DNA from: Paludibacter sp. | Lineage (GTDB): Bacteria > Bacteroidota > Bacteroidia > Bacteroidales > Paludibacteraceae | Length of the DNA stretch: 34,806 bases | NCBI GenBank assembly: GCA_010365115.1 | Contig: JAAFGX010000041.1 | Location: forward strand, 1 to 34,806 | Direction of reading: 5' to 3' | Shown: piece after piece, positions 44-16,157 of the stretch | Numbering within the stretch: position 1 is the stretch's first letter | Layout of the letters: each line of letters opens with the position of its first letter | Notes under the pieces: generated by a model | Seen by the model: the letters and a program-made list of their open reading frames with translations, nothing else | Databases searched by the model: none | What the model was told of the DNA's origin: nothing | Position numbers and translations under genes: made by a program

Positions 44-1477
44 TTAATCAACTAGAATAGGTTTGTACTTTGGAACTAATGTTTTCATAACAATCCAACC
101 AATCAGATATGCAACAGCACAGAAGGTGAAAACAATAGTATAACCTGGAGTTTTGCTGCCCCATTCAATCAAACTATAATCGAAAAGCATACCACTTCCT
201 TTGTTGATAAAGAAAGAACCCACGCCACCTGCCATACCACCAATTCCAACAATAGTTGCTATAGCCGATTTTGGGAACATATCACCAACTGTTGTGAAAA
301 TATTAGCTGACCAAGCTTGATGAGCTGATCCACCAATACCAATCAACAGAACTGGAACCCAGAAAGCATAATTCCCTAATGCAGCGATATGACCAAAAGG
401 TTGAGCAAGTAAAATTAATAAGGGGAAGAAAGCAATAATCAACATAGCTCTCATACGCCCGGCATAAGGATTCATACCCTTATTAATAAAGTAGGTTGGA
501 AATTTTCCTCCAAAAACAGATCCAAATACGGTGAGCGTATAAAGTACTCCAATAGGCAATGCAACTTCAGATGGTGCCATGCCATATTCTGCTTTCAGAT
601 AAGCCGGAGTCCAGAAAAGGAAAAACCACCAAACGCCATCCGTCATAAACTTACCAAACGCAAATGCCCAAGTTTGTTTGAACTTGAAAGCTTCTTTAAA
701 TGACATTTTCTTTATTTTGACTTTATCGTCAGATACTTTTTTGTCCATCTCATCATCCTGATGAATGTATGCTCTTTCAGCATCATTCACCAATTTGTTC
801 GATTCGATAGGTTTATAAAAAATAAGCCATGCTCCAAGCCATAGAAACCCAACAGCTCCGATGACTAAAAATGCAGTTTCCCAACCCCAAGCTTCAGCCA
901 TAAAGGGAACAGTAAGCGGTGCTAAAATGGCTCCTACATTTGCTCCAGAATTGAATATTCCCGTAGCAAAGGCACGGTCGCGTTTTGGAAAATACTCAGC
1001 TGTTGCTTTAATTGCAGCCGGAAAGTTGGCAGATTCTCCAAAAGCAAGTAAAATTCGTGCAATTACAAACATGACTACACTCACAACTGAAATAGTAGCC
1101 ATAACTGAACCTGTAGCATTTGTCAGTCCTTTGGCATCGGGTATTCCCGTCCACCATTCGGTAGCCAAACCTGCGAAAGCATGTAGCATTGCAGCCACCG
1201 ACCACACTGCAATAGCCCAAGCATATCCTTTTTTTGTACCCAATTTGTCAACAAATCTTCCTGCAAATAACATGGATATTGCATAAGCCAATGAAAATAT
1301 CGATGTAATTGTTCCATAATCACTATCCGACCAGTGAAACTCATCAGCCAAAATAGGCTGAAGTAAAGACAATACCTGACGATCCAAATAATTAATCGTA
1401 GTAGCCGCAAACAGTAAAGTACAGATGGTCCATCTGTATTTTGTCATTTGATTGTTGATTTTTCCAATTGTAGTCAT
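44..1477 (-). CDS. exuT: ExuT-like hexuronate transporter (MFS, ACS family)
   Basis: Predicted inner-membrane symporter of the major facilitator superfamily importing glucuronate and/or galacturonate. The 477-residue protein has a short cytoplasmic N-terminus and about twelve hydrophobic segments. After TM1 comes the motif NYLDRQVLS, typical of the anion:cation symporter group that includes ExuT, and the TM2-TM3 loop carries GRFVDKLGTKKG, the MFS loop signature. A charged central loop near residues 225-260 separates the two six-helix halves. It is the last gene of the minus-strand uronate operon and starts only 4 bases after the kdgA stop codon, so it is almost certainly co-transcribed and perhaps translationally coupled. 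The substrate is inferred from the neighbours; other sugar acids such as KDG or gluconate are possible. No terminator is visible in the 43 bases that remain downstream. Confidence 0.88.
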   Translation of the reverse strand: MTTIGKINNQMTKYRWTICTLLFAATTINYLDRQVLSLLQPILADEFHWSDSDYGTITSIFSLAYAISMLFAGRFVDKLGTKKGYAWAIAVWSVAAMLHAFAGLATEWWTGIPDAKGLTNATGSVMATISVVSVVMFVIARILLAFGESANFPAAIKATAEYFPKRDRAFATGIFNSGANVGAILAPLTVPFMAEAWGWETAFLVIGAVGFLWLGAWLIFYKPIESNKLVNDAERAYIHQDDEMDKKVSDDKVKIKKMSFKEAFKFKQTWAFAFGKFMTDGVWWFFLFWTPAYLKAEYGMAPSEVALPIGVLYTLTVFGSVFGGKFPTYFINKGMNPYAGRMRAMLIIAFFPLLILLAQPFGHIAALGNYAFWVPVLLIGIGGSAHQAWSANIFTTVGDMFPKSAIATIVGIGGMAGGVGSFFINKGSGMLFDYSLIEWGSKTPGYTIVFTFCAVAYLIGWIVMKTLVPKYKPILVD

Positions 1478-1481
1478 AAAT

Positions 1482-2147
1482 TTATTTTTTAACTTTTTTA
1501 ATTATTTCTAATGTGTCGCTACATAATTTTGATATTCCTGCCCAATCGCCTGCTTTCATCATGTGGGCAGGAAAAAGATTTGAACCCATGCCAACGCAAG
1601 TCACGCCTGCATCGAACCAACCTTTTAAATTTGATTCTTCAGGTTTAACGCCACCTGTTACCATTAAATTTGACCATGGCATTGGTGCTTTTAATCCTTT
1701 TACAAATCCGGTTCCCAATACATCGCCCGGGAAAACCTTGCATACATCGCAACCCATTTCCTGCGCATAACCAACTTCCGAAACCGATCCGCAACCCGGC
1801 GAATAAGGTATCAGGCGACGGTTTGCCACTTTGGCTACTTCTGGATTAAATAATGGCCCAACTATGAAGTTTGCGCCCAATTGAATGTATAATGCTGCAG
1901 TTGGAGCATCAACTATAGAACCAATACCCATAATCATTTCAGGGCATTCTTTTGTAGCAAATTTGACTAAATCGCCAAAAATCTCATGTGCAAAATCGGC
2001 ACGATTTGTGAATTCGAATACACGAACACCACCATCGTAACAAGCTTTTACAACATTCTTTGCAACTTCGATATCGCTATGGTAAAAAACCGGAACCATA
2101 CCGGTTTGTTTCATAGCCGTAAGTACCTCTATTTTTGAAAATTTCAT
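1482..2147 (-). CDS. kdgA: KDPG aldolase (2-dehydro-3-deoxyphosphogluconate aldolase)
   Basis: Cleaves 2-keto-3-deoxy-6-phosphogluconate to pyruvate and glyceraldehyde-3-phosphate, the final step of uronate breakdown, in the cytoplasm. It is 221 residues, the usual length of the class I KDPG/KHG aldolase family (TIM barrel). The Schiff-base lysine is K137 in CDVCKVFPG, the family active-site motif; the general acid/base glutamate is probably E45 in VRVFEFTNR, and the phosphate loop is likely VTGGV. The start ATG is preceded by a degenerate member of the CCCCTTTAGGGG repeat family. It lies between kdgK upstream and the transporter downstream, all on the minus strand. Members of this family may also act on 4-hydroxy-2-oxoglutarate, but the context favours KDPG. 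Confidence 0.93.
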
Positions 2148-2324: not shown

Positions 2325-3368
2325 TTATCTTGACACCCTGCCACTTCCATCTCCACCCATTAAAGCTTCCACTTCTGGAACGGTTGCAAGGTTATAATCC
2401 CCATAAATAGTATGTTTCAAGCACGAAGCTGCAACAGCGAATTCCAACGCTTTTTGGTCACTATCTGCATATGTAAGTAGTCCGTAGATTAATCCGCCCA
2501 TAAATGAGTCGCCACCTCCAACGCGGTCAACTATGTGAGTGATATCGTAACGTTTTGATTGATATAAAGTTCCGTTACTGTAGAGTACGCCGCCCCAGGT
2601 ATTATGATTGGCATTAATTGAACCACGAAGTGTGATAATTACTTTTTTAGCACGTGGAAATTTAACCATCATTTGGGTACAAACCGATTCAAATTCTGTG
2701 GCATTTACTTCGCCACCGGTGTGAGCCACATCGAAACCTTCAGGTTTTATTCCGAAAACTTTTTCAGCATCTTCTTCATTTCCCAAAATAATATCGCAAC
2801 CTGCAGTTAAAGCAGGCATCACTTCGGAAGCTGATTTACCGTATTTCCATAAGTTTTTGCGGAAGTTCAAGTCAGTAGAAACTGTAACGCCCATTTCATT
2901 TGCAATTTGAATTGCTTCCAAACATGCATCGGCAGCACCTTGCGAAAGGGCAGGAGTGATGCCTGTCCAGTGAAACCAATCGGCATCTTTGAATACTTCG
3001 CGCCAGTTAACCATCCCTGGTTTAATGTCAGCAATTGAAGAATTTGCACGGTCGTAAACCACTTTACTGGCACGGGCAACTGCACCTGTTTCGAGAAAAT
3101 AGATACCAACACGGTCGCCACCTCTTAAAATTTCTTTGGTTCCAACTCCGTATTTGCGCAAATTCATGATACAAGAATCTGCGATGTCGTTTTTAGGTAA
3201 ACGTGTTACAAATTCTGTGTCCATTCCGTAGTTTGCCAACGATACGGCTACATTTGCCTCGCCGCCTCCAAAGGTAGCTGTAAATTGTGTAGCCTGACTA
3301 AAACGTTCGAAGCCGGGAGTAGCCAATCGAAGCATAATTTCTCCAAATGTTACAATCTTTTTACTCAT
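2325..3368 (-). CDS. kdgK: 2-keto-3-deoxygluconate kinase (PfkB family)
   Basis: ATP-dependent kinase converting KDG to KDPG, directly before KdgA in the pathway. The 347-residue protein has the two PfkB signatures: FGGGEANVAV at residues 33-42 and DRVGGGDSF at 281-289, with GGGD as anion hole and D287 as catalytic base. DLNFRKNLW at 166-174 contains the arginine (R170) that in characterised KDG kinases contacts the substrate carboxylate. It has its own likely promoter in the uxaC-kdgK gap and lies in the same minus-strand operon as kdgA and the transporter. A second, more divergent PfkB kinase sits in the plus-strand operon at 10499-11575; of the two, this one matches canonical KdgK better. 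Confidence 0.92.
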   Translation of the reverse strand: MSKKIVTFGEIMLRLATPGFERFSQATQFTATFGGGEANVAVSLANYGMDTEFVTRLPKNDIADSCIMNLRKYGVGTKEILRGGDRVGIYFLETGAVARASKVVYDRANSSIADIKPGMVNWREVFKDADWFHWTGITPALSQGAADACLEAIQIANEMGVTVSTDLNFRKNLWKYGKSASEVMPALTAGCDIILGNEEDAEKVFGIKPEGFDVAHTGGEVNATEFESVCTQMMVKFPRAKKVIITLRGSINANHNTWGGVLYSNGTLYQSKRYDITHIVDRVGGGDSFMGGLIYGLLTYADSDQKALEFAVAASCLKHTIYGDYNLATVPEVEALMGGDGSGRVSR

Positions 3369-3518: not shown

Positions 3519-4925
3519 TTAAAAATTAAAAAACGATTTTGCATTATTGTAACTGATATCCTCTACCATTTTACCAATAAATTCAAGTTCTTGATGTGGT
3601 AGTAAGCCATTTTCTACATCATTACCTATCAAATTACAAAGTGTGCGACGGAAATACTCGTGGCGAGGGTAGGAAAGGAAGCTCCGCGAATCGGTTAACA
3701 TCCCTACAAAGCGACTCAACAAACCGAGCACAGATAGCGAATTCATTTGTTTTTCCATACCATCTTTCTGATCGAGGAACCACCATCCTGAGCCGAACTG
3801 GATTTTCCCTGGAACAGTTCCATCCTGAAAATTTCCAATCATAGTGGCAATCATTTCATTGTCGTTTGGATTCAAATTGTATAAAATGGTTTTAGTCAGT
3901 TTGTTTTGCGAATCCAAACGGTTTAAAAACTTAGATAACGCTTTAGCTGTATTAAATGTACCAATTGAATCAAAACCAGTATCAGCACCTATTTGATTAA
4001 ACAAGCGTGAGTTATTGTTTCGGATAGTTCCGTAGTGGAATTGTTGTGTCCAACCTTTTTCCCAATCCATTTCGGCAAAAATAACCATCATGGCCGATTT
4101 GAATTTAAGTATTTCATTTTGTATAAGTTCTTGTCCTCCATATACTTTGCTGAAAATACTTTTTATTTCTGTTTCGGTATAATCTTCGGCGTAAAATTCT
4201 TCAATACCATGATCGGAAAGCTTGCAACCTACTTCTGCAAAAAAATCCTGACGTTTGCGTATTGCCATAATCATATCATCAAACGATGAAATAGAAGTTT
4301 CGGAAACAGTAGCCAATTGATCAACATACGCTTTGAAGTTAGCTGCATTTTCCACTGCCATAGCTTTGTCGGGACGCCAGGTGGGGAGCATTTTTATTTC
4401 AAAACCATCCAGTTTTGTTTTTATATGATGTTCGAGTGAATCTATTGGATCATCAGTTGTACAAACAGCTTCCACATTATATTTACGCATTAGGTTACGT
4501 GCTGAATATTCCGGAGTTTGAAGTTTGGCAGTGCATTCATCGTAAATTTCCCTTGCAGTGGCTGGCGAAAGCAATTTGTCAATCCCAAAACCGGTTTTAA
4601 GTTCCAAATGTGTCCAGTGATACAACGGGTTACGCATGGTGTAGGGCACTGTTTCTGCCCATTTTTCAAACTTTTCCCAATCAGAAGTGTTTCTTCCAGT
4701 GATAAATTCTTCATCAATACCATTGGTGCGCATGGCTCTCCATTTATAGTGATCACCACCTAACCATAATTCAGTTAGGGTTTTAAATTGATGATCGTTT
4801 GCTACCATTGATGGTACTAAATGACAGTGATAGTCAATGATTGGCATTTTTGCCGCATGATTATGATACAAGTTTTGGGCAGTTTCGGTTTGCAACAAAA
4901 AATTTTCATCTAAAAAGTTTTTCAT
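3519..4925 (-). CDS. uxaC: Glucuronate/galacturonate isomerase
   Basis: Isomerises D-glucuronate to D-fructuronate and D-galacturonate to D-tagaturonate, the entry step of both hexuronate pathways. The 468-residue length is normal for UxaC, a member of the amidohydrolase superfamily (TIM barrel, metal site). The N-terminal metal-binding HxH is seen as H33/H35 in DYHCHLVPS. Further family stretches are LTDSRSFLSYPRHEYFRR near residues 411-428 and the C-terminal VEDISYNNAKSFF. It is the first gene of the minus-strand operon, with a leader of about 200 bases from the promoter/operator at 5125-5166. A 150-base gap separates it from kdgK. Confidence 0.96.
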   Translation of the reverse strand: MKNFLDENFLLQTETAQNLYHNHAAKMPIIDYHCHLVPSMVANDHQFKTLTELWLGGDHYKWRAMRTNGIDEEFITGRNTSDWEKFEKWAETVPYTMRNPLYHWTHLELKTGFGIDKLLSPATAREIYDECTAKLQTPEYSARNLMRKYNVEAVCTTDDPIDSLEHHIKTKLDGFEIKMLPTWRPDKAMAVENAANFKAYVDQLATVSETSISSFDDMIMAIRKRQDFFAEVGCKLSDHGIEEFYAEDYTETEIKSIFSKVYGGQELIQNEILKFKSAMMVIFAEMDWEKGWTQQFHYGTIRNNNSRLFNQIGADTGFDSIGTFNTAKALSKFLNRLDSQNKLTKTILYNLNPNDNEMIATMIGNFQDGTVPGKIQFGSGWWFLDQKDGMEKQMNSLSVLGLLSRFVGMLTDSRSFLSYPRHEYFRRTLCNLIGNDVENGLLPHQELEFIGKMVEDISYNNAKSFFNF

Positions 4926-5124: not shown

Positions 5125-5136
5125 GTGTGCGCACAC
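5125..5136. promoter_or_regulatory. Operator O1 (perfect palindrome GTGTGCGCACAC)
   Basis: A perfect 12-base palindrome overlapping the predicted -7 element and start site of the minus-strand uxaC promoter. Two close variants lie at 5439-5450 and 5510-5521. Such palindromes with a central CG are typical LacI-family binding sites, and the adjacent gene at 5544 encodes a LacI-family protein, so this is its likely operator. Confidence 0.8.
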
Positions 5137-5166
5137 AAAGGTAGAATATTATTTTTAATTACCAAA
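5136..5166 (-). promoter_or_regulatory. uxaC operon promoter
   Basis: On the minus strand, TTTG (plus 5163-5166), a 19-base spacer and TACCTTTG (plus 5136-5143) match the Bacteroidetes sigma consensus exactly. The -7 element shares a base with operator O1, so repressor bound there would block initiation. The predicted leader before the uxaC start is about 200 bases, AT-rich, with no recognised riboswitch. Confidence 0.7.
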
Positions 5167-5438
5167 CGAAATAATTTATTTAAAAATGTCACACATATTA
5201 TATTTAATTTTATTTAACAGAGGATATGTAAATCAAATTTATCACCATAATTATCAAATAACGTAAAAATTGCAATATTTTCAATATGAATTTCAGGGAG
5301 TTATTTACGTTTATAATAAAACTATTTAAAAAGTATTTCTTTTGAATAATTTTATATATTTCTTTTTCAATAAATTAACAATTAAGTATAAGTATATCAG
5401 CAAAATACTTTGGTAATTTACACAATCCAATAGTTACC

Positions 5439-5450
5439 GTGTTCGCACAC
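5439..5450. promoter_or_regulatory. Operator O2 (GTGTTCGCACAC)
   Basis: Same motif as O1 with one change breaking perfect symmetry (GTGTTC/GCACAC). It lies just upstream of the -33 element of the regulator promoter and is paired with O3 downstream of it. Confidence 0.78.
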
Positions 5451-5464
5451 AACTATAAAAAAGT

Positions 5465-5494
5465 TTTGCACATTCAAAATATGTATTACTTTTG
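5465..5494 (+). promoter_or_regulatory. Promoter of the LacI-family regulator
   Basis: TTTG at 5465-5468, an 18-base spacer and TACTTTTG at 5487-5494 match the Bacteroidetes promoter consensus. The predicted start is near 5500, leaving a leader of about 45 bases. O2 and O3 flank it, which suggests autoregulation. Confidence 0.7.
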
Positions 5495-5509
5495 TAAGAA
5501 AATAATACT

Positions 5510-5521
5510 GTGTTCGCACAC
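5510..5521. promoter_or_regulatory. Operator O3 (GTGTTCGCACAC)
   Basis: Identical to O2, located just downstream of the predicted transcription start of the regulator gene, where bound repressor would act as a roadblock. O2 and O3 centres are 71 bases apart. Confidence 0.8.
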
Positions 5522-5543: not shown

Positions 5544-6617
5544 ATGAGTGATTTAGCCACAAAAATACGAATAAAAGACATTGCTACTTTAGCAGGTGTA
5601 TCCGAAGGAACTGTAGATCGTGTACTTCATAATAGGGGCGATGTTTCCGAAAAGAGTCGCGATGCCGTAACAAAGGTATTAGAACAGATGAATTATACGC
5701 CCAATCTTTTTGCCCGATCATTAGCTTCAAAAAAACAATATAGGTTTGTGTGCATGATACCAACTTATCAATCAGAAGATTATTGGGAAAGTGTTGATAA
5801 AGGATTTGATAGTGCCGCTCTAGATTTCGTACACCATAATGTGTTGATAGAAAAAAACTTTTTCAACCAATACGATGTGAATTCATTTATTGAAGTGTCA
5901 AATAAAATTCTTGAGAAAGAAGTTGATGCAGTATTTTTAGCCCCAATTTTCAAAGCAGAATCAATTGTATTTACCGATAAACTAACCAATCGTAATATCC
6001 CATTTTCATTTATCGATTCCTTGATTCCTGAAGCAAATTATCTGACTTATTATGGTCAAAACTCATTCCAAAGCGGTTATATTGCAGCAAAATTATTGCT
6101 AAGTTCATTGTCAGAAGGAAGCCAGATAATGATTATCAGAACTCAACGAAAAGGTTCAGTTTCTAATCAAACCATTTCTCGTTACAACGGTTTTATAAAT
6201 TATTTTCACCAGAATGGTCTTTCGGGTATTTACCAAATTATTAATGTAGAATTAAAAAATGATGATGAGGACTCAAATTTTAAAGTACTCGAAAATATAT
6301 TTGCAATGCATTCTAATATAAAAGCGGCTATTACTTTTAATTCAAAAGTTCACCGGTTGGCAAATCATCTAGTTTCATTGAGACAGGAAAAAATACGATT
6401 AATTGGTTACGACTTGCTAAAAACGAATGTGGAATATCTGCAAAAAGGAGTAATAAACATTTTGATTGCTCAACGCCCAGAGAAACAAGGGTTTTTCACT
6501 GTTCGTGATATGTGTCGGGAGCTAATTTTCAGGCAGGAAGTAAAAAAAATAAATTACGTGCCAATAGACATATTGCTCAAGGAAAATATTGAAGATTATA
6601 TGAATTTTAGCGAATAA
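5544..6617 (+). CDS. LacI-family transcriptional regulator of uronate genes
   Basis: Cytoplasmic DNA-binding regulator, 357 residues. The N-terminal LacI helix-turn-helix is at about residues 8-33 (IRIKDIATLAGVSEGTVDRV), followed by the hinge helix region near NLFARSLASKK. The rest is a periplasmic-binding-protein-like sensor domain with the usual effector-binding cleft. The gene sits between the divergent uronate operons and its upstream region carries three copies of one palindrome, placed on its own promoter and on that of uxaC. The effector is not visible from sequence; fructuronate, tagaturonate or the uronates themselves are reasonable guesses. It may be a repressor that also controls itself. 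No operator copy was seen before uxaE at 6884, so control of the plus-strand operon is unresolved. Confidence 0.9.
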   Translation: MSDLATKIRIKDIATLAGVSEGTVDRVLHNRGDVSEKSRDAVTKVLEQMNYTPNLFARSLASKKQYRFVCMIPTYQSEDYWESVDKGFDSAALDFVHHNVLIEKNFFNQYDVNSFIEVSNKILEKEVDAVFLAPIFKAESIVFTDKLTNRNIPFSFIDSLIPEANYLTYYGQNSFQSGYIAAKLLLSSLSEGSQIMIIRTQRKGSVSNQTISRYNGFINYFHQNGLSGIYQIINVELKNDDEDSNFKVLENIFAMHSNIKAAITFNSKVHRLANHLVSLRQEKIRLIGYDLLKTNVEYLQKGVINILIAQRPEKQGFFTVRDMCRELIFRQEVKKINYVPIDILLKENIEDYMNFSE

Positions 6618-6883: not shown

Positions 6884-8131
6884 GTGAAATTAGGGAAATT
6901 CAGTTTTGGTACAGGCGACCGCTTTTCGCATCAGGGCGAAGCTCAACTTAGAGCAATTATGAAAGCAAATAAATCCGGTTTGGATATTAGTCCGGTTTGG
7001 AACAAATCGAATCGCGAGCACACCTATGTTCACACCCATCCAGGAGATGTACGTATAGAAGCTGATGAGGCAGTGGCTAAACTAGGTTATAAAGGAAAAT
7101 ACTTTGTGGATGCCGATCACATTAATTTAAGCAATGTAGCTGCATTTGTGAATTCTTCTGACTTTTTTACGCTTGATGTGGCCTCATTCATTGGCAAAGA
7201 AAGCAAAGAGGCAGAGGTAAATGAATTTGTATCTTCTAGCCAGAAATATATCGGAAATTTGATGATTCAAGGTATCGAACGTCCTATCGTTGTTACTGAA
7301 GAATTATTGCACCAAATTGCTGCAAAATTTTTAGCTGCAACACAACAAGCAGCCGATATTTACAATTTCCTTGTAAAGAAAAAAGGTAAAGGTAACTTTA
7401 TTACAGAAGTTTCGATGGACGAAGTGGAAACACCACAGACTCCGGTAGAATTGTTGTTTATTTTAAAAATGCTTGCTGATAAAGGCGTTCCGGCTCAGAC
7501 CATTGCTCCTAAATTTACTGGCCGTTTCAATAAAGGAGTAGATTATACTGGTGATGTTGACCAGTTTGCAAAAGAATTTGAAGAAGATGTATTGGTGATT
7601 GACTTTGCGATTAAAGAATTTGGACTGCCCGAAGAATTGAAATTGAGTATTCATTCAGGTAGCGATAAATTTTCTATTTATCCGGTTATGGCTCTAGTAA
7701 TTAAGAAATACGATAAAGGATTGCATGTAAAAACTGCCGGTACCACCTGGCTCGAAGAAGTAATTGGATTGGCCATTGCGGGTGACGATGCGTTGGTAGC
7801 AGCAAAATACATTTACGAACATTCAATTGGCCGTAAAGATGAATTGTGTGCTCCATATGCTGATGTAATTGATATCGATGATACAAAACTACCTTCAGTA
7901 GAAGAAGTAAATAGTTGGACTGGTGAAAAATATGCAAATACGCTTCGTCATATTCCTGGACATCCCGATTACAATCCAAATTTCCGCCAATTAATTCATG
8001 TGGCATATAAAGTTGCAGCTGAAATGGGTAAAAACTATGCGGATTTATTAGAAAAATACTCTGAAGTGATTGGCTCTTGTGTTGAAGAAAATATTTACGA
8101 TCGTCATTTAAAACGGTTGTTTAATTTATAA
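6884..8131 (+). CDS. uxaE: Tagaturonate/fructuronate epimerase
   Basis: C4 epimerase interconverting D-tagaturonate and D-fructuronate, which lets galacturonate enter the fructuronate-mannonate branch without the altronate enzymes UxaB and UxaA. The family was described in Thermotoga maritima. The 415-residue protein shows the stretches I associate with it: SFGTGDRFSHQGEAQLRA at about residues 7-24, DADHINLSN, IHSGSDKFSIYP, HVKTAGTTWLEE and RQLIHVAYK near the C-terminus. It starts directly at the FGTGDR region and lacks the N-terminal extension that I recall in the Thermotoga enzyme. The start is GTG at 6884; no better in-frame ATG fits. It is the first gene of the plus-strand operon. Confidence 0.88.
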   Translation: MKLGKFSFGTGDRFSHQGEAQLRAIMKANKSGLDISPVWNKSNREHTYVHTHPGDVRIEADEAVAKLGYKGKYFVDADHINLSNVAAFVNSSDFFTLDVASFIGKESKEAEVNEFVSSSQKYIGNLMIQGIERPIVVTEELLHQIAAKFLAATQQAADIYNFLVKKKGKGNFITEVSMDEVETPQTPVELLFILKMLADKGVPAQTIAPKFTGRFNKGVDYTGDVDQFAKEFEEDVLVIDFAIKEFGLPEELKLSIHSGSDKFSIYPVMALVIKKYDKGLHVKTAGTTWLEEVIGLAIAGDDALVAAKYIYEHSIGRKDELCAPYADVIDIDDTKLPSVEEVNSWTGEKYANTLRHIPGHPDYNPNFRQLIHVAYKVAAEMGKNYADLLEKYSEVIGSCVEENIYDRHLKRLFNL

Positions 8132-8138
8132 AAACGAT

Positions 8139-8237
8139 CCATAACTCCTAAAGGGGAAAAGAAAATAGTAATTTCTACCTGTATTATAAATTATGAGACG
8201 AAAGGAACTAAATTCCCCTTTAGGGGTTAGGGGTCAT
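8139..8237. repeat. Inverted pair of CCCCTTTAGGGG-family repeat, uxaE-SDR gap
   Basis: The forward copy at 8211-8237 is clear (AATTCCCCTTTAGGGG, then TTAGGGGTCA) and ends about 15 bases before the next start. The reverse copy at about 8139-8160 is shorter and degenerate (ACTCCTAAAGGGGAAAAG), beginning 8 bases after the uxaE stop. Confidence 0.8.
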
Positions 8238-8251
8238 AAAAACAAAAGAAA

Positions 8252-9061
8252 ATGAAAAACTTATTCGATGTAAAAGGTAAAGTGATTGTTATCACTGGTG
8301 GTGCCGGTATCCTGGGTAGTGGAATGGCTGAATATATGGCTGAACAAGGCTGTAAAGTTGTTGTTTTAGATAGAGCAGATGCAGGTGTCTCATTAGTTGA
8401 GGAAATCAAGTCAAAAGGTGGTGAAGCGCTTTATCTAAATACTGATGTTCTTAACAAAGAAGCATTGCAACAAAATGCAAAGGATATTGTTGCTGCTTTT
8501 GGTAGAATTGACATTTTAGTAAATGCCGCTGGTGGTAATATGGCAGGTGCAACAATTGGTCCTGACCAAACAATTTTCGATCTTCAAATTGATGCATTTG
8601 AAAAAGTGGTGGATCTGAACTTGTTTGGAACCGTATTGCCATGTATGGTATTTGGAAAAATTATGGTTGATCAAAAAGAAGGAAGTATTATTAATATTTC
8701 ATCTGAATCGGCTATTCGTCCCTTGACACGTGTGGTTGGTTACGGTGCCTCTAAAGCTGCTGTAACAAACTTTACAAAATTTCTGGCTACTGAAATGGCA
8801 AGCAAATTCAGCGAAAAAATACGGGTTAATGCAATGGCTCCTGGTTTTTTCTTAACTGAGCAAAACCGTGCGTTAATGACAAATCCTGATGGAACTCCAA
8901 CTCCGAGAGGAAAATCAATTGTTGCTCATACGCCATTTGGTCGTTTAGGAGAAGCAGATGAATTATTTGGTACACTTCACTGGTTATCAAGCGATGCCTC
9001 CAAATTTGTAACAGGAACACTCACTGTTATTGATGGTGGTTTTGACGCATTTTGTATTTAA
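8252..9061 (+). CDS. Fructuronate reductase (D-mannonate oxidoreductase), SDR family
   Basis: Short-chain dehydrogenase/reductase, 269 residues, predicted to reduce D-fructuronate to D-mannonate with NAD(P)H. The coenzyme glycine motif TGGAGILG is at residues 15-22, NAAG at 91-94, the catalytic serine in NISSESA near 150, and the Y164/K168 pair in YGASK. The acidic VVLDRAD at the end of beta 2 suggests a preference for NADH. It is not related to classical UxuB (a long-chain mannitol-type dehydrogenase), but SDR enzymes replace UxuB in many bacteria, and its position immediately before uxuA supports the role. A gluconate 5-dehydrogenase-like activity is the main alternative on sequence alone. 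Confidence 0.85.
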   Translation: MKNLFDVKGKVIVITGGAGILGSGMAEYMAEQGCKVVVLDRADAGVSLVEEIKSKGGEALYLNTDVLNKEALQQNAKDIVAAFGRIDILVNAAGGNMAGATIGPDQTIFDLQIDAFEKVVDLNLFGTVLPCMVFGKIMVDQKEGSIINISSESAIRPLTRVVGYGASKAAVTNFTKFLATEMASKFSEKIRVNAMAPGFFLTEQNRALMTNPDGTPTPRGKSIVAHTPFGRLGEADELFGTLHWLSSDASKFVTGTLTVIDGGFDAFCI

Positions 9062-9203
9062 GAACCCCTAACCCCTAAAGGGGAATAAGAGTTGTGAAAG
9101 TTAATTTATAAAAGTAGATATAAGTTTTTATTAAAAAAATCCTTTGATTTATCTAAATGAGAATGGACATGCTTCATTCCCCTTTAGTGGTTAGGGGTAA
9201 ATA
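9062..9203. repeat. Inverted pair of CCCCTTTAGGGG-family repeat, SDR-uxuA gap
   Basis: The reverse copy at 9062-9089 begins right after the SDR stop codon (ACCCCTAACCCCTAAAGGGG). The forward copy at 9175-9203 (ATTCCCCTTTAGTGGTTAGG) ends about 6 bases before the uxuA start. The arms can pair over about 25 bases around a loop of about 85 bases. Confidence 0.88.
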
Positions 9204-9208
9204 AGATT

Positions 9209-10378
9209 ATGCATTTATGTAAACAATCGTGGAGATGGTACGGTCCGAATGACCCTGTATCATTATGGGACATTCGTCAGGCTGGTGCAACTGATATTGT
9301 GACGGCATTACACCAAATACCAAATGGTGAAGTTTGGACGGTAGAAGCAATTTTATACCGAAAAAGAATGATTGCAGAAGCCGGTTTAATATGGTCGGTA
9401 GTGGAAAGTGTTCCTGTACATGAAGATATTAAAAAACGAACTGGGAATTATAAAGAATATATCGATAATTATAAGCAAACAGTGAGAAATCTGGCAGAAT
9501 GCGATATTCGTATTGTGACGTATAACTTCATGCCAATTCTGGACTGGACACGTACTGATTTGGCTTATGAAATGCCCGATCGCTCAAAAGCACTACGCTT
9601 CGAAATGGCCGCATTTGTAGCTTTTGATTTATATATTCTGAAACGTCCTCATGCAGAAAAGGATTATACTGTAGATCAGATTTCGAAAGCTAAAAAACGT
9701 TTTGATGATATGAGCGAAGCTGAAAAGGAAAAGTTGACCCGCAATATGATAGCCGGACTTCCGGGTGCGGAAGAAAGCTTTTCGTTGGAGCAATTTCAAA
9801 CAGCATTGAATACGTATCAAGATATTAATGAAGATCAATTGCGAAATAATTTATTTTATTTCATAAATGAAATTACTCATGTCGCCGATGAGGTTGGTAT
9901 TCAAATGGCAATTCATCCCGATGATCCTCCGCGTGCAATTCTTGGTTTACCCCGTATTTTGAGTACAGCCGAAGATGTTCGGAAACTTTTTGCAGCTGTT
10001 CCAAGCAAAGCAAACGGAATTTGTTTGTGTACCGGTTCTTTTGGAGTTTCGTCAACCAATGATTTGACGTCCATGTTGCGCGAATTTGGCGAAAGATTGT
10101 ATTATGTGCATTTTCGCAGTACCCATCGTAATGATGAAGGCGATTTTTACGAAGATAACCATTTGGAAGGCGATGTGGATATGTATGAAGCCATGAAAGC
10201 ATTGCTTGTTGTTCAATATACTTATAAGCGCAACATTCCAATGCGACCAGATCACGGACATCAAATGTTGGACGATTTGCACAAAAAAACTAATCCGGGT
10301 TACTCTGCTATAGGCATGCTTCGTGGTATGGCCGAATTGCGGGGACTAGAACTGGGAATATCAAGAACGCTTTTTTAG
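9209..10378 (+). CDS. uxuA: Mannonate dehydratase
   Basis: Dehydrates D-mannonate to 2-keto-3-deoxygluconate in the cytoplasm. The 389-residue length is typical of UxuA, a metal-dependent TIM-barrel enzyme of the xylose-isomerase-like superfamily. Family stretches are [20 protein letters not shown] at residues 9-28, [14 protein letters not shown], the metal-site histidine in [25 protein letters not shown] and the C-terminal [10 protein letters not shown]. It lies between the fructuronate reductase and a PfkB kinase, with repeat pairs in both flanking gaps, and belongs to the plus-strand operon. All expected conserved blocks are present and there is no sign of truncation. Confidence 0.96.
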
Positions 10379-10382
10379 AAAC

Positions 10383-10490
10383 AAGCCCCTAACACCCTAA
10401 AGGGGGAATTTGAGATTGAAATTAAAATATATTGTATAACTTTTAAAATCGCCTGCCGAAAATTCCCCCTTTAGGGGGTTAGGGGGCTTC
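10383..10490. repeat. Inverted pair of CCCCTTTAGGGG-family repeat, uxuA-kinase gap
   Basis: The reverse copy at 10383-10411 (AGCCCCTAACACCCTAAAGG) starts 4 bases after the uxuA stop codon. The forward copy at 10461-10490 (TTCCCCCTTTAGGGGGTTAG) ends 8 bases before the kinase start. This gap uses mostly five-C/five-G runs instead of four. Confidence 0.88.
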
Positions 10491-10498
10491 TAATTATT

Positions 10499-11575
10499 AT
10501 GATAACACTAAGAAAAGATTGCAAATACTCCCTGATGGTCGCAACCAGTATGGGAGTTCGTATTACTCCAGTTAATGGTCAACCAGTTCATAGCAGTCAC
10601 CTGTACGAAATGCAGGCTTCAAGTGCTGAAACTAACGTGGCTAGTATTTCATCATTCCTTGGACTACCAGTAAAAGTTCTTACCACATTTGTAAAAGACA
10701 GTCCGATTGCTCAATTAATCAAAGCCGACTTGCGTAGTCGAAACATGGATTATGAAGGACCAGAAGTGGCACAAGGAGATCCATGGGGTTATCGTCACCA
10801 GTTTAATATTGCTGACAGTGGTTTTGGCAGTCGCGGACCACGTGTGTTAAACGACCGTGCCGGTGAAGTTGGACGTACGTTGAATGTAAAAGATTTCGAT
10901 TTAGAACGTATCTTTATAAAAGAAGGTGTTCAGATTCTACACTTATCAGGTTTAATTGGCGCTTTGTCAGCCGAGACAAGTAATTTCTGTCTGGAACTGG
11001 CTCGTTATGCTAAGAAAACAGGAACACGCATTTCGTTCGATTTAAATTACCGTGCATCTTTTTGGAAAGGTCGCGATAAAGAATTACGTGATATTTTTAC
11101 TGAAATTGCTTCTATTGCTGATATTTTAATTGGTAATGAAGAAGATTTTCAACTTTGTTTGGGAATAAAAGGCCCCGAAGCCGGTGGAAAAGGGATTGAA
11201 GCCGAAATTGATGGTTTCAAAGGTATGATTGGTCGAGTTAAGCAGGCTTTCCCTAATGCCTCTGTTTATGCCACCACATTGCGTCAAGTAATCAGCACCA
11301 ACGAACATCTTTGGGGTGCTATTATGCTTGATGGCGATACTTGGAATGTTATTGAACCTCGCAAAATTAATGTTCTCGACCGTATTGGTGGTGGCGACGG
11401 ATTTGTGGGCGGTATGCTTTACGCCATTCTCAAAGGTTGGGAATCTGAACAATGGGCACAATTTGGCTGGGCTTCAGGTGCACTTGCAACCACATTTTTG
11501 ACCGACTATGCACAACCTGCTGACGAAGAACAAATCTGGAGTATCTGGGGTGGAAATGCGAGAGTGAAACGATAA
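10499..11575 (+). CDS. PfkB-family sugar-acid kinase, substrate uncertain
   Basis: ATP-dependent carbohydrate kinase of the ribokinase/PfkB family, 358 residues. The C-terminal signature DRIGGGDGF is at 294-302, with GGGD at 297-300. DLNYRASFWKG at 181-191 matches the KDG-kinase-type motif whose arginine (R185) binds a carboxylate, so the substrate is probably a sugar acid. The N-terminal PfkB motif is atypical: SSAETN at 41-46 replaces the FGGGEAN of the neighbouring kdgK. A second KDG kinase is the conservative reading. Since the same operon carries a LarA-type epimerase and gnd, gluconate or another aldonate is an alternative substrate. It is followed directly by a repeat arm and a four-helix-bundle gene. 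Confidence 0.82.
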   Translation: MITLRKDCKYSLMVATSMGVRITPVNGQPVHSSHLYEMQASSAETNVASISSFLGLPVKVLTTFVKDSPIAQLIKADLRSRNMDYEGPEVAQGDPWGYRHQFNIADSGFGSRGPRVLNDRAGEVGRTLNVKDFDLERIFIKEGVQILHLSGLIGALSAETSNFCLELARYAKKTGTRISFDLNYRASFWKGRDKELRDIFTEIASIADILIGNEEDFQLCLGIKGPEAGGKGIEAEIDGFKGMIGRVKQAFPNASVYATTLRQVISTNEHLWGAIMLDGDTWNVIEPRKINVLDRIGGGDGFVGGMLYAILKGWESEQWAQFGWASGALATTFLTDYAQPADEEQIWSIWGGNARVKR

Positions 11576-11617
11576 ATTCATTTGCTATTTTTTTATTTAC
11601 TATTTACCATTTCTGGT
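11576..11617. repeat. Left arm of TAGTAAATGGTAAAT-family repeat
   Basis: TTTACTATTTACCATTT and flanks fill the 42 bases between the kinase stop codon and the preferred start of the four-helix-bundle gene. Its reverse complement matches the right arm at about 12044-12079 over about 36 bases with few differences. Confidence 0.75.
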
Positions 11618-12004
11618 ATGACAGCAGATGAATTAAAAAAGAGATTAAAGGGTTTTGCTTTAAGAATTATTAAACTCTCGGAGGGTTTTCCCAATAATAT
11701 AACTGGTAAAACTTTAGGGAATCAAATTATTCGTTCGGGAACTTCACCAGGAGCAAATTATAGGTCTGCATGTTTGGGTAAATCTGATAAGGATTTTCTC
11801 AACAAATTGAAAATGGTTGAAGAGGAATTGGATGAAACAATGTATTGGTTAGAATTAATTATTGAATCAGGACAAGTAAAAGCAAATTTAATAGACGATT
11901 TGATGAAAGAGAATCATGAATTGTCGAAAATCATTGTGAGCTCAATAACCACAATGAAGAAAAAACTGAACTCTCCCAAAAAAGACTCAAATGAAGGAAA
12001 ATAG
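11618..12004 (+). CDS. Four-helix-bundle protein (23S rRNA intervening-sequence protein family)
   Basis: Small helical protein of 128 residues from ATG 11618. It resembles the S23/IVP four-helix-bundle family: FALRIIKLSEGFP near the start, the conserved IIRSGTSPGANYRSA block, then EELDETMYWLELIIESG. I chose ATG 11618 over the upstream TTG at 11582 because the extra 12 residues would be encoded entirely by a repeat arm and because family members begin shortly before the FALRI helix. The cellular function of this family is not settled; some relatives lie in 23S rRNA intervening sequences and a related fold serves as accessory protein in diversity-generating retroelements. It interrupts the uronate operon, its stop codon TAG lies in the opposing repeat arm, and it has no evident metabolic role there. 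Confidence 0.85.
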   Translation: MTADELKKRLKGFALRIIKLSEGFPNNITGKTLGNQIIRSGTSPGANYRSACLGKSDKDFLNKLKMVEEELDETMYWLELIIESGQVKANLIDDLMKENHELSKIIVSSITTMKKKLNSPKKDSNEGK

Positions 12005-12076
12005 TAAATGCTAAATGAAAACTAGTCAGTTTTTTGGTTTTAAATAGTAAATGGTAAATGAAAAAATAGTAAATAT
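12003..12076. repeat. Right arm of TAGTAAATGGTAAAT-family repeat
   Basis: The 74 bases from the four-helix-bundle stop to the epimerase start carry AATAGTAAATGGTAAATG and two further AATAGTAAAT units. It is the inverted counterpart of 11576-11617, so the pair encloses the four-helix-bundle gene. Confidence 0.78.
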
Positions 12077-13366
12077 ATGATGTATTACTCAATTGGTTCA
12101 ACAGAACTGGAACTCAATGCCGAAGACTTGAAAAAAGGTCTTTTTGAAGCATTTGAAAAAATGGGAAAAAAGCACAAAGTGCTTGCTATTCCTCCTGATT
12201 ATACACGTTTGCCAAGTCGTGCTGGCGAACTTACCGAATTTACTTGGCAGTATTACCGGGAAGCACTTACTGATGTTTTACCGGCTTTGGGCACGCACAC
12301 TCCGATGACCACTCATCAAATTTCACACATGTTCGGTTCGATGCCTGCTTCGCTCATTCGAGAACACGACTGGCGCAATGATGTGGTGACGGTTGGAATT
12401 GTACCAGCCGAATTTGTAAAAGAAGTTTCGGGTGGTGCAGTGGATTTCCCTTGGCCTGCTCAGGTTAATAAACTATTGTTGGAAGGAAAATTCGATTTAA
12501 TTCTTTCTATTGGACAAGTAGTACCCCACGAAGTGGTTGGTATGGCTAATTACAACAAGAATATTTTTGTTGGAACAGGTGGAGTGGAAGGAATCAATAA
12601 AAGTCACTTTGTGGGTGCTGCTTACGGAATGGAACGTATGATGGGACATGCTGACACGCCTGTTCGCAGGATTTTTAATTATGCTTCGGAACATTTTACC
12701 AATAATTTGCCTATCGTCTATGTTCAAACCGTTGTTGGGTTGGATAAAACCGATGGTAAGATTAAATGCCGTGGTTTATATATAGGCGACGATTTTGAAG
12801 TGTTCGATAAAGCTGCTAAACTGGCTTTGTTGGTAAACTTCGAAATGTTGGACAAACCATTGAAAAAAGTAGTTGTGTATCTCGATCCTACAGAATTCAA
12901 AAGCACTTGGTTGGGTAATAAATCTATTTACCGTACACGAATGGCAATTGACGATAACGGAGAATTGATTGTTTTAGCTCCAGCGCTAAAAGAGTTTGGC
13001 GAGGACAAAGAAATAGACCGCTTGATTAGAAAATACGGTTATTTCGGAACTCCAGCGACTTTAAAAGCCTGTGACGATAACGAAGAATTGAGGAATAACC
13101 TGAGTGCAGCTGCACATTTGATTCATGGTTCTTCCGAAGGCCGTTTCAGTATAACATATTGTCCGGGAAAAGGAACTGAAAACCTGACACAGACAGAAAT
13201 AGAAAGTGTTGGATTTAACTACGCCGATATTGACGAAGTAACAGCTAAATACGATCCAACCAAACTACGTGATGGTTTCAATATTATGCCCGATGGAGAA
13301 GAGATATTCTATATTTCTAATCCTGCTTTGGGATTGTGGGCGTTTAAGGATAGGTTTAAATACTAA
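12077..13366 (+). CDS. LarA-family (nickel-pincer) 2-hydroxyacid epimerase, probably acting on an aldonate
   Basis: 429-residue member of the lactate racemase (LarA, DUF2088) superfamily. DYTR (41-44) matches the LarA DHTR motif and GTHTPMT carries H74, equivalent to the catalytic His108 of Lactiplantibacillus plantarum LarA. H151, K161 and H177 have spacings of 10 and 16 residues, exactly those of LarA His174, Lys184 (cofactor attachment) and His200 (nickel ligand). These residues suggest that it binds the nickel-pincer nucleotide and epimerises C2 of a 2-hydroxy acid. Mannonate to gluconate is the natural candidate, since mannonate is made by this operon and gluconate epimerases are known among LarA homologues. 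The cofactor genes larB, larC and larE are not in this window. ATG 12080, three bases on, is an equally possible start. Confidence 0.82.
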   Translation: MMYYSIGSTELELNAEDLKKGLFEAFEKMGKKHKVLAIPPDYTRLPSRAGELTEFTWQYYREALTDVLPALGTHTPMTTHQISHMFGSMPASLIREHDWRNDVVTVGIVPAEFVKEVSGGAVDFPWPAQVNKLLLEGKFDLILSIGQVVPHEVVGMANYNKNIFVGTGGVEGINKSHFVGAAYGMERMMGHADTPVRRIFNYASEHFTNNLPIVYVQTVVGLDKTDGKIKCRGLYIGDDFEVFDKAAKLALLVNFEMLDKPLKKVVVYLDPTEFKSTWLGNKSIYRTRMAIDDNGELIVLAPALKEFGEDKEIDRLIRKYGYFGTPATLKACDDNEELRNNLSAAAHLIHGSSEGRFSITYCPGKGTENLTQTEIESVGFNYADIDEVTAKYDPTKLRDGFNIMPDGEEIFYISNPALGLWAFKDRFKY

Positions 13367-13455
13367 TTTTTTATTTGCCATTTCTTCATTTACTATTTAC
13401 CGTTTTCAATAATGGCAATAAATAGTAAATGGTAAATGGTTAAATAGTAAATGAA
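13367..13455. repeat. Inverted pair of TAGTAAATGGTAAAT-family repeat, epimerase-pdxB gap
   Basis: The gap is wholly made of two facing arms: CATTTACTATTTACC near 13387-13401 and AATAGTAAATGGTAAATGG near 13421-13439, plus TTGCCATT/AATGGCAA next to them. It looks like the empty form of the element that encloses the four-helix-bundle gene upstream. Confidence 0.82.
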
Positions 13456-13458
13456 TTG

Positions 13459-14577
13459 ATGAAAATAATTATCGACGACAAAATACCGTACATACAAGGC
13501 GCATTCGAAAATGTTGCCCACGTTGTTTATTTGCCGGGTTCAAAAACAACTCCGGAAATAGCCAGAGATGCCGATGCGATTGTTACTCGTACCCGAACTA
13601 TCTGCAATGAAAAATTGCTCGCCGGTTCATCGGTAAAGTTTATTGCTACGGCAACCATTGGTTACGACCATATTGATACTGATTATTGCGATGCTGCTGG
13701 AATTAAATGGACAAATGCTCCCGGCTGCAATTCTAAATCGGTGGAGCAATATATTGCTTCAACATTAATGGTGTTGGCTGAGCGAAAAGGTTGGAACCTG
13801 TGTGAAAAATGCATCGGTGTAGTGGGAGTAGGGAATGTAGGAAGTAAAGTGGCGCATATATGTGAAATCTTTGGTATGAAAGTATTGCTGAATGATCCAC
13901 CTCGGGAACGTGCCGAAGGTTCCGAAAAGTTTGTGAGTTTGGAAACTGTTCAGCAACAAGCAGATATCATTACTTTGCATGTTCCATTGAATATGAAAGG
14001 CGAAGATGCCACATTTCATTTGGGAAATGAAGCTTTCTTAAACTCATTGAGTCGCAAACCTGTTCTTATTAATTCCTGTAGAGGTGAAGTGATTGAGACC
14101 AATGCCGTTAAGGAAGCTTTAAAATCGGGACAACTTTCCGGTTTTGTGTGCGATTGTTGGGAAAATGAGCCGGATTTGGATTTAGAATTATTGGATTTGG
14201 CCGATTTAGCCACACCGCATATTGCAGGTTACTCCAAAGACGGAAAAGCAACAGGAACTCAAATGAGCGTACATGCTATCAGTAACTATTTTGGACTTGG
14301 TTTGGAAAACTGGCAACCCACAGGGGTTGAATCTCCGTTGAATCCTGTTATAGAAATTGATGGTGCTGGTTTAAATGAACAGGAAATTATTTCAAAAGCC
14401 ATTTTGCATACTTATGATATTCGGAATGACGATTCAGATTTAAGAAAGGATATTACTCTGTTCGAACAACTTCGTGGCGATTACCCAACGCGCAGGGAAT
14501 TTCCAGCATATACAATAAATGCGAAGAATGTGAGCGATATTACGTTGAATAAACTTAAAGAATTGGGATTTAAATGA
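13459..14577 (+). CDS. pdxB: 4-phosphoerythronate dehydrogenase
   Basis: NAD-dependent D-2-hydroxyacid dehydrogenase of the PdxB type, which oxidises 4-phosphoerythronate in pyridoxal-phosphate synthesis. Counting from ATG 13459 it has 372 residues. The Rossmann motif GVGNVG is near residue 124, and the catalytic triad is seen as R208 in SCRGE, E237 in WENEP and H254 in TPHIAGYS (approximate). The C-terminal domain after about residue 285 is the PdxB dimerisation type, which separates it from shorter 2-hydroxyacid dehydrogenases. ATG 13459 is preferred to TTG 13456 immediately before it. A pyridoxal-phosphate gene in a uronate operon is unexpected; the alternative is a dehydrogenase for another aldonic acid phosphate. 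Confidence 0.88.
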   Translation: MKIIIDDKIPYIQGAFENVAHVVYLPGSKTTPEIARDADAIVTRTRTICNEKLLAGSSVKFIATATIGYDHIDTDYCDAAGIKWTNAPGCNSKSVEQYIASTLMVLAERKGWNLCEKCIGVVGVGNVGSKVAHICEIFGMKVLLNDPPRERAEGSEKFVSLETVQQQADIITLHVPLNMKGEDATFHLGNEAFLNSLSRKPVLINSCRGEVIETNAVKEALKSGQLSGFVCDCWENEPDLDLELLDLADLATPHIAGYSKDGKATGTQMSVHAISNYFGLGLENWQPTGVESPLNPVIEIDGAGLNEQEIISKAILHTYDIRNDDSDLRKDITLFEQLRGDYPTRREFPAYTINAKNVSDITLNKLKELGFK

Positions 14578-14578
14578 C

Positions 14579-14700
14579 CGACCCCCAACCCCCTAAAAGG
14601 GGCTTTAAGACTTGATCTTTGAAGAATATATAAAAAAATGAATGAGTTAAACAATTAATACTAACTAAAAATTTCCCCTTTAGGGGATTAAGGGGTCTTA
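14579..14700. repeat. Inverted pair of CCCCTTTAGGGG-family repeat, pdxB-gnd gap
   Basis: The reverse copy at 14579-14607 (ACCCCCAACCCCCTAAAAGG) starts 1-3 bases after the pdxB stop. The forward copy at 14671-14700 (TTTCCCCTTTAGGGGATTAA) ends about 3 bases before the gnd start codon. Confidence 0.87.
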
Positions 14701-14702
14701 TT

Positions 14703-16157
14703 ATGAAACAAAAAGCAGATATCGGATTAATCGGGTTGGCCGTAATGGGCGAAAACCTGGTATTGAACATGGAAAGTAAAGGTTTTACTGTTGGCGTTTT
14801 CAACCGAACAGTAGCTCGGGTTGACGAATTTATGGCAGGTCGTGGTGCCGGTAAAAACTTTATCGGAGCACATTCTATCAAAGAATTATGCGATTCGTTG
14901 GAAAAACCGCGTAAAGTAATGATGCTTGTAAAAGCAGGTAAACCGGTAGATGATTTTATTGAACTGATAATTCCTCATTTGGAAGAAGGTGATATAATTA
15001 TTGATGGTGGTAACTCGCATTTTCCTGACACCATTCGTCGTTGTAAATATGTTGAAAGCAAAGGTTTATTGTATATTGGTACAGGTGTTTCGGGTGGCGA
15101 AGAAGGTGCACTTCTCGGACCTTCCATGATGCCGGGTGGTTCGCCTGCTGCATGGCCTGCTGTGAAAGAAATTTTCCAGGCAGTAGCTGCTAAAGTTGAT
15201 GACGGAACTCCTTGCTGCGACTGGGTTGGCGAAGGTGGAGCCGGTCACTTTGTGAAAATGGTTCATAATGGAATTGAATATGGCGATATGCAGATTATTT
15301 GCGAAGCTTATCAGGTTATGAAAGACTTGTTGGGATTGAGCGCAGACGAAATGCACGATGTTTTCAAAACCTACAACGAAGGCGATCTGGATTCGTATCT
15401 GATTGAAATTACACGCGATATTTTAGCTGTAAAAGACGAAGATGGTTCTCCATTGGTAGAAAAAATTCTGGATACAGCAGGACAAAAAGGAACAGGAAAA
15501 TGGACTGGGGTTACGGCTCTCGACCTTGGTATTCCATTGACCTTGATTGGCGAATCGGTATTTGCACGCTGTTTGTCGGCTCAAAAAGACATACGCGTAA
15601 AAGCTTCGAAAGTAATCAGCGGACCTGAAGCTAAATTCTCAGGCGACAAAAAGCAAATGATTTCCGATTTGAAAGATGCTTTGTTCGGGGCTAAAATTAT
15701 TTCGTATGCACAAGGTTACAACCTAATGATGGAAGCTGCCAGCGAATATAAATGGAACCTGAACTATGGTGGCATTGCTTTGATGTGGCGTGGTGGTTGC
15801 ATTATTCGTTCTACGTTTTTGGGTGATATCAAAAAAGCTTTTGACAAAAATCCGGAACTCGAAAACCTTTTGTTGGATCCTCATTTCAAAGATATTGTTG
15901 AAAAGGCTCAGGCCGGATGGCGTAGGGTTTGTGCTACAGCATTGACTTATGGCGTACCTGTACCTGCTTTGACTTCCGCATTGTGTTACTTCGACGGACT
16001 ACGCAGCGAACGCTTGCCTGCCAACCTGCTGCAAGCTCAACGCGACTACTTTGGAGCACATACTTACGAACGCATTGACAAGCCTCGTGGACAATTTTTC
16101 CACACCAACTGGACTGGACGTGGCGGAGATACCGCTTCTACAACCTATGTAGTTTAA
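14703..16157 (+). CDS. gnd: 6-phosphogluconate dehydrogenase (decarboxylating)
   Basis: Converts 6-phosphogluconate to ribulose-5-phosphate, CO2 and NADPH. It is full length at 484 residues. The N-terminal coenzyme motif GLAVMGENLVLNM is at about 11-23, and FNRT at the end of beta 2 suggests NADP. The catalytic GGAGHFVKMVHNGIEYGDMQ holds K185, with HNG following, and the C-terminal tail ends in HTNWTGRGGDTASTTYVV, the usual substrate-covering segment. It is the last gene of the plus-strand operon. No zwf or pgl follows; instead a strong terminator lies 35 bases downstream. This placement with uronate genes rather than with the oxidative pentose phosphate genes is notable. Confidence 0.97.
   Translation: MKQKADIGLIGLAVMGENLVLNMESKGFTVGVFNRTVARVDEFMAGRGAGKNFIGAHSIKELCDSLEKPRKVMMLVKAGKPVDDFIELIIPHLEEGDIIIDGGNSHFPDTIRRCKYVESKGLLYIGTGVSGGEEGALLGPSMMPGGSPAAWPAVKEIFQAVAAKVDDGTPCCDWVGEGGAGHFVKMVHNGIEYGDMQIICEAYQVMKDLLGLSADEMHDVFKTYNEGDLDSYLIEITRDILAVKDEDGSPLVEKILDTAGQKGTGKWTGVTALDLGIPLTLIGESVFARCLSAQKDIRVKASKVISGPEAKFSGDKKQMISDLKDALFGAKIISYAQGYNLMMEAASEYKWNLNYGGIALMWRGGCIIRSTFLGDIKKAFDKNPELENLLLDPHFKDIVEKAQAGWRRVCATALTYGVPVPALTSALCYFDGLRSERLPANLLQAQRDYFGAHTYERIDKPRGQFFHTNWTGRGGDTASTTYVV

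Follow-up and report, generated by a model that had tools for sequence, protein, structure and literature searches.

We analysed a contig of 34,806 nucleotides from Paludibacter sp. (JAAFGX010000041.1 of assembly GCA_010365115.1; this whole contig, C149 in our numbering, is hereafter called the window), which belongs to an assembly of 207 contigs and 4.79 Mb with a completeness of 100 and a contamination of 7.2%. The window carries two divergent operons, and the plus-strand operon includes a homologue of the lactate racemase LarA. An earlier note on this DNA had placed a PfkB-family kinase, the LarA homologue and gnd in a single plus-strand operon, and we confirmed this arrangement, which lies downstream of UxaE, the mannonate oxidoreductase and UxuA; the interval 10499..16157 also holds two genes absent from that note, a 23S-IVP gene and pdxB. 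The features are as follows.

44..1477, minus strand: MFS sugar-acid transporter of the divergent operon (best match TIGR00893, D-galactonate transporter family, 202.8 bits, below the cut-off of 395)
1482..2147, minus strand: presumably KDPG aldolase, divergent operon (named from family features of its translation)
2325..3368, minus strand: KdgK, 2-keto-3-deoxygluconate (KDG) kinase (PF00294; 326.6 bits to 2AFB, residues 3-347)
3519..4925, minus strand: a gene that we take to encode the uronate isomerase UxaC (named from family features of its translation)
5125, 5439 and 5510 (span 5125..5521), between the divergent operons: three near-palindromes GTGT(G/T)CGCACAC, candidate LacI operators
5544..6617, plus strand: LacI-family regulator (PF00356, PF13407)
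6884..8131, plus strand: UxaE, tagaturonate/fructuronate epimerase (PF16257, 199.2 bits)
8252..9061, plus strand: SDR D-mannonate oxidoreductase in the UxuB/UxaD role (NF006132, 360.4 bits, cut-off 281)
9209..10378, plus strand: UxuA, mannonate dehydratase (TIGR00695, 577.9 bits)
10499..11575, plus strand: PfkB-family sugar-acid kinase, predicted gluconate (or mannonate) 6-kinase (PF00294, 67.8 bits)
11582..12004, plus strand: four-helix 23S-IVP protein gene, between the kinase and larA (PF05635, TIGR02436)
12077..13366, plus strand: LarA homologue of group 18, predicted D-mannonate/D-gluconate C2 epimerase dependent on the nickel-pincer nucleotide, NPN (NF052594)
13456..14577, plus strand: PdxB, 4-phosphoerythronate dehydrogenase, between larA and gnd (NF001309, 457.1 bits, cut-off 434)
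14703..16157, plus strand: Gnd, 6-phosphogluconate dehydrogenase (TIGR00873, 754.2 bits, cut-off 426.7)

The LarA homologue has the LarA fold and falls in group 18 (NF052594, NPN_18_hexonate; 655.5 bits against a cut-off of 500), for which NCBIfam so far gives a hypothetical function only, that of a putative hexonate epimerase. The residues H74, H151, K161 and H177 are all in place as previously described, with the spacing 151/161/177 identical to that of LarA 174/184/200, and D41, R44 and K282 are the counterparts of LarA D72, R75 and K298 (LarA numbering as given in PMC7583248). In all 66 aligned LarA sequences, the equivalents of the NPN-binding residues R75/K184/H200 (R44, K161, H177) and of the catalytic residues D72/H108/H174/K298 (D41, H74, H151, K282) are invariant, and the D-gluconate 2-epimerase (GntE) signature E, V, A, H reported in PMC11770544 is present (E152, V153, A346, H347; 66/66). 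Gluconate epimerase activity among LarA homologues, as the earlier note mentioned, has been demonstrated in vitro for groups 19 and 20 (Desguin 2020). The window protein is a member of group 18 by score and by residues, and the substrate pair that we propose for it is argued from context.

This context was examined in a scan of genome contigs, from which the best 80 of at least 585 LarA relatives were kept, many of their loci being incomplete. Matches to the window proteins in the 80 loci were most numerous for the SDR (62), Gnd (56) and the kinase (48), followed by LacI (37), UxaE (32), PdxB (29), UxaC (29), KdgK (22), IVP (10) and UxuA (7). An SDR, a PfkB-type kinase and Gnd lie within 4 kb of LarA and on its strand in 39 of the 58 well-flanked loci; this core set recurs in loci of Bacteroidota and Ignavibacteria and in one Planctomycetota locus (L139), and loci of other phyla hold parts of it only. 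The carriers of LarA were studied as two sets, a 16-genome phylum sample and 50 named genomes, out of the 80 named loci, that were searched for cofactor genes. A PF03786 search for UxuA in 62 of these genomes (the 16 of the phylum sample and 46 of the 50 named) found it in 29 (5/16 in the phylum sample) and did not find it in 33 (11/16 in the phylum sample). Because only 7/80 loci and 29/62 genomes have a match, UxuA looks like an accessory gene, added in the window and in some relatives. In terms of the co-occurrence beside uxuA that the note had suggested surveying, it is the SDR, LarA and Gnd, in most cases accompanied by a PfkB kinase, that recur, and UxuA itself is rare; the route through LarA, presented there as a branch beside the KDG pathway, is less a side branch than a recurring core, although the KDG exit is present in the window.

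The kinase at 10499-11575 is distinct from KdgK, as had been claimed, since it scores 105.6 bits to the Thermotoga maritima KDG kinase 2AFB, vs. 326.6 bits for the window KdgK, and its N-terminal motif lacks the GG of KdgK (ASSAETNVA in place of GGGEANVA). It has a match over >80% of its length with >60% identity in 36 of 66 carrier loci (window included); 20 of those 36 kinases, when aligned, are 74-94% identical to that of the window with an invariant GGGD motif, a tightness owed partly to the 60% identity filter. Outside this close set, identity falls to 31-36% or the kinase belongs to a family other than PfkB. The absence of zwf and pgl noted beside gnd is true locally but not across the assembly, where zwf (L049:5991-7529, PF00479) and a pgl-like open reading frame named by eye (L049:7642-8370) both lie on contig C190. 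The window gnd is the sole gnd over the TIGR00873 cut-off in the assembly, where a second full gnd was sought and none exceeded the cut-off; 19 of 20 genomes tested have a single copy over it, and one has two equal copies. Because zwf and the pgl-like frame sit on another contig, the window gnd is probably used in the ordinary oxidative pentose phosphate pathway as well.

From gene order, family membership, residues and conservation we infer every catalytic step in the window organism, together with the order of epimerase and kinase. UxaC and UxaE would yield fructuronate, which the SDR would reduce to D-mannonate; the LarA homologue would invert C2 of D-mannonate to give D-gluconate, by a hidden hydride transfer on NPN; the PfkB kinase would phosphorylate gluconate at C6; and Gnd would decarboxylate 6-phosphogluconate to ribulose-5-phosphate, with formation of NADPH. 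UxuA, KdgK and the KDPG aldolase would provide a second exit via KDG. Apparently the organism does not make NPN, and would acquire it or a late precursor, or produce it with unrecognised enzymes. We consider it probable that the operon takes hexuronates to ribulose-5-phosphate in this manner, through mannonate, gluconate and 6-phosphogluconate, with NPN acquired or made by an unrecognised route. The context, the signature residues and the homology to a proven gluconate 2-epimerase speak for the sequence from mannonate onward that the earlier note had put forward, but it is not new, and the cofactor genes were not detected.

The finding is real and our reading of the operon likely, the pathway being a variant of a published scheme. 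The window differs from T. maritima in that its LarA is of group 18, whereas GntE2 of T. maritima is of group 20 (26% identity over the structural alignment); its kinase is of the PfkB family, unlike GntK of T. maritima, which is presumably an FGGY-family kinase; and its assembly is without larC matches, which the T. maritima genome has. The two systems share UxaE, a mannonate oxidoreductase (UxaD in T. maritima; PMC5673643), a LarA-type epimerase (GntE), a gluconate kinase and Gnd (PMC3750489, PMC5673643, PMC7583248). The T. maritima operon is described as aldH-pelB-gnd-uxaRED-gntEK, regulated by UxaR within a pectin/galacturonate regulon (PMC3750489), and PMC6978723 and PMC7583248 credit its route from mannonate through gluconate to 6-phosphogluconate to Rodionova 2012. 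Relative to lactate racemase LarA with LarB, LarC and LarE, the window protein has another substrate signature, and no larB, larC or larE exceeds the cut-offs in its assembly.

Several observations weigh against the proposed route. In the parts of the literature that we covered, no assay of any group-18 enzyme was found, and the KM of GntE2 for D-mannonate is given as 17 mM, so that the true substrate of the LarA homologue may differ. The kinase is not constant: in 14 of the 58 loci that extend 4 kb to either side, no PfkB-type match lies in that range, and two of the 14 (L170 and L172, Ignavibacteria-type) have phosphofructokinase-type (PF00365) and HAD-type genes between the SDR and LarA, the phosphofructokinase-type gene of L172 exceeding the NF010675 cut-off. 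A conserved HAD-type protein of ~300 residues lies directly upstream of LarA in these two loci (L170:10641-12896, L172:7138-9326), together with the phosphofructokinase-type gene, and in two Planctomycetota loci without it (L106:9089-9991, L130:9090-9989), whose HAD relatives are 52% and 41% identical. A phosphotransferase in this slot is thus common, its family variable and its substrate presumed. This variability and the structural comparison pull in opposite directions and leave our assessment of the route unchanged.

The order of kinase and epimerase is also brought into question by the galacturonate-phosphoketolase pathway of Lactobacillus suebicus, which likewise runs from uronate through mannonate and 6-phosphogluconate to ribulose-5-phosphate with UxaC, UxaE, UxuB and 6-phosphogluconate dehydrogenase, but in which the kinase acts first, on mannonate (PMC6978723). 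Were this true here, 6-phosphomannonate would be made and the LarA homologue would epimerise it to 6-phosphogluconate. Both activities are reported in L. suebicus cell extracts, with neither gene, that of the epimerase included, identified there (PMC6978723); the gene order in the window is SDR, kinase, LarA, Gnd; and a cluster of H350, S352, S353 and R356 behind the signature A-H is near-invariant in group 18 and different in 13 more distant LarA sequences, a phosphate site being one possible reading of this cluster. The signature residues, however, match enzymes proven on unphosphorylated D-mannonate, and the T. maritima operon is written gntEK, with the epimerase ahead of the kinase. Context cannot fix the order because L. 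suebicus phosphorylates mannonate first, but we regard phosphorylation before epimerisation as unlikely in the window organism.

The remaining points against the gluconate route concern the cofactor. Genes for its synthesis, which the earlier note had advised looking for elsewhere in the genome and whose absence it had named as refuting its proposal, were not found over the cut-offs in the window assembly (no larC match; best larE match 32.3 bits and best larB match 50.2 bits, cut-offs 150 and 175). This lowers the claim of a self-made cofactor and not LarA membership. Among the carriers, larB, larC and larE were all undetected in 11 of the 16 phylum-sample carriers, and larB and larC in 24 of the 50 named carriers, where larE was not searched. 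For the window genome, draft quality and contamination weaken the absence; for the group, its main basis is the 16-genome sample. We also considered that the window contig might be foreign to a mixed assembly: 10.6 kb of it align at 77.8% with the corresponding locus of a Paludibacter genome, and the other stretches of the assembly match just 3.3 kb in the 0.37 Mb of that genome that were sampled, a comparison for which a metabolic locus is a biased yardstick; on the other side, tetranucleotide correlations between the window and 20 other stretches of the assembly are 0.93-0.98, and 6 of those 20 also carry the CCCCTTTAGGGG-type motif found in the gaps of the operon.

larC is enriched among carriers (5/16 vs. 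14/280, P = 0.0018), as one would expect with NPN as the family cofactor, and the search matched larC in both controls, T. maritima and Corynebacterium glutamicum, whose GntE activity was demonstrated in Desguin 2020. The possibility that a divergent LarC escapes the model was tried and rejected: it did detect the short LarC proteins of three Marinilabiliaceae-type genomes (82.9-89.7 bits), each genome having LarB over the cut-off, adjoining LarC in one of the three, and a LarC of comparable divergence would therefore have been picked up. These LarC proteins have 262-271 residues (L162:1102-1899, L163:1114-1902, L164:1492-2307; two Carboxylicivirga and one Marinilabiliaceae genome), and that of L164 adjoins larB and the terminal part of a gene judged by eye to be larE-like. 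The split between carriers in which no cofactor genes were found (orphan) and carriers having them (equipped) is not clean, since in G097 and G240 LarC is present but neither LarB nor LarE exceeds its cut-off, and LarB occurs without LarC in two genomes of Phycisphaerae (G339, G342). PMC11796402 describes genomes that have larB, larC and larE and no larA; no report of the reverse case was found in the open-access literature covered, which includes PMC12611868 and not Desguin 2014. In a second LarA class, from one family (f38) of the phylum sample (L020, L021, L023, L024, L026, L027, L028), larB, larC and larE were not found in 7/7 genomes, and in the 4 loci inspected this LarA adjoins a dehydrogenase distantly similar to Gnd.

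The frequent absence of these genes would also be explained if LarA in such genomes were inactive, or had lost NPN and taken another role. The orphan proteins do not look like relics. D41, R44, H74, H151, K161, H177 and K282 are retained in 35/35 orphan sequences, and among 12 pairs of orphans the ratio of nonsynonymous to synonymous substitution (dN/dS), where dS is finite, is 0.025-0.070 for LarA (9 pairs) and 0.029-0.063 for Gnd (10 pairs), with synonymous sites close to saturation; by these estimates orphan LarA is under strong purifying selection. The operon is at least as intact in orphans as in equipped carriers, with SDR, kinase and Gnd together in 24/29 orphan and 15/29 equipped loci. 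On a maximum-likelihood tree of 66 LarA sequences the orphan/equipped label needs 12 changes, 8 of them forced by well supported branches, against a shuffled mean of 22.2; one supported branch leads to ten rows, nine of them from the phylum sample, that are all orphan (the root is a midpoint only). Eight of the 16 phylum carriers are without both UxuA and larB/C/E; in four of these the SDR, a PfkB-type kinase and Gnd are all found beside LarA, in two PFK-type and HAD genes replace the kinase, in one a kinase was not seen, and in the last Gnd lies on a different contig. In these eight, LarA is the only mannonate exit identified, enolase-type dehydratases being outside the search. We therefore hold an inactive or repurposed LarA to be improbable. 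Least probable of all is a reverse flow, in which gluconate would be epimerised to mannonate and leave through UxuA as KDG, for although epimerases are reversible and UxuA, KdgK and the aldolase are in the window, UxuA matches occur in only 7/80 loci and 29/62 genomes, whereas Gnd and a kinase recur.

No residues clearly separate orphan from equipped LarA in the 66-sequence alignment. Across 15 loci of the phylum sample, 10 of them orphan and 5 equipped, we looked among the orphan-only neighbours for genes that might supply the cofactor, and no family suggests such a role; judged by eye, the orphan-only families present in at least three loci comprise an unassigned one in 6 loci, a second UxaC-like cluster in 4, and two that resemble dehydrogenases or reductases in 3 each.

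Of the other features, the three near-palindromes are likely operators of the LacI regulator, judging from their sequence: there are 6 strand matches at ≤1 mismatch, a number reached in 0/100 shuffles, and exact copies occur in 6 of 204 loci examined. Palindromic intergenic elements of ~100-150 bases, with ends like CCCCTAACCCCTAAAGGGG ... CCCCTTTAGGGGTTAGGGG, occupy 8132-8251, 9062-9208, 10379-10498 and 14578-14702; their core motif lies also on 6 of the 20 other assembly stretches and at several Paludibacter-type loci, and they look like a small mobile or REP-like repeat family. An Rfam scan gave 0 matches at gathering thresholds. The 23S-IVP protein is probably an unrelated passenger. 4-Phosphoerythronate inhibits 6-phosphogluconate dehydrogenase in B. 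subtilis (PMC12445079), and PdxB may be a metabolite repair enzyme protecting Gnd.

Because many carriers are without lar genes while their LarA is under strong purifying selection, the pattern speaks for a cofactor source still to be found, and not for a dead enzyme. We tentatively suggest, as a possibility somewhat short of an even chance, that NPN is a shared good: many Bacteroidota and Ignavibacteria would depend on an NPN enzyme for a central step of uronate catabolism without being able to make NPN, and would import it, complete or as a late precursor, from neighbours by way of an unrecognised importer, or, in a weaker form of the idea, would possess an unrecognised second NPN pathway.

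With the gluconate route, the metabolic scheme of Thermotoga reaches a broader range of bacteria, group 18 acquires a substrate that can be tested, and a PfkB-type kinase is named for the route. The cofactor mismatch is the part worth following, and the main point is that a conserved nickel enzyme is under strong selection in genomes without the known cofactor-making genes. If this is true, there would be either a new NPN pathway or an organometallic cofactor exchanged between bacteria, which could be tested in culturable strains.

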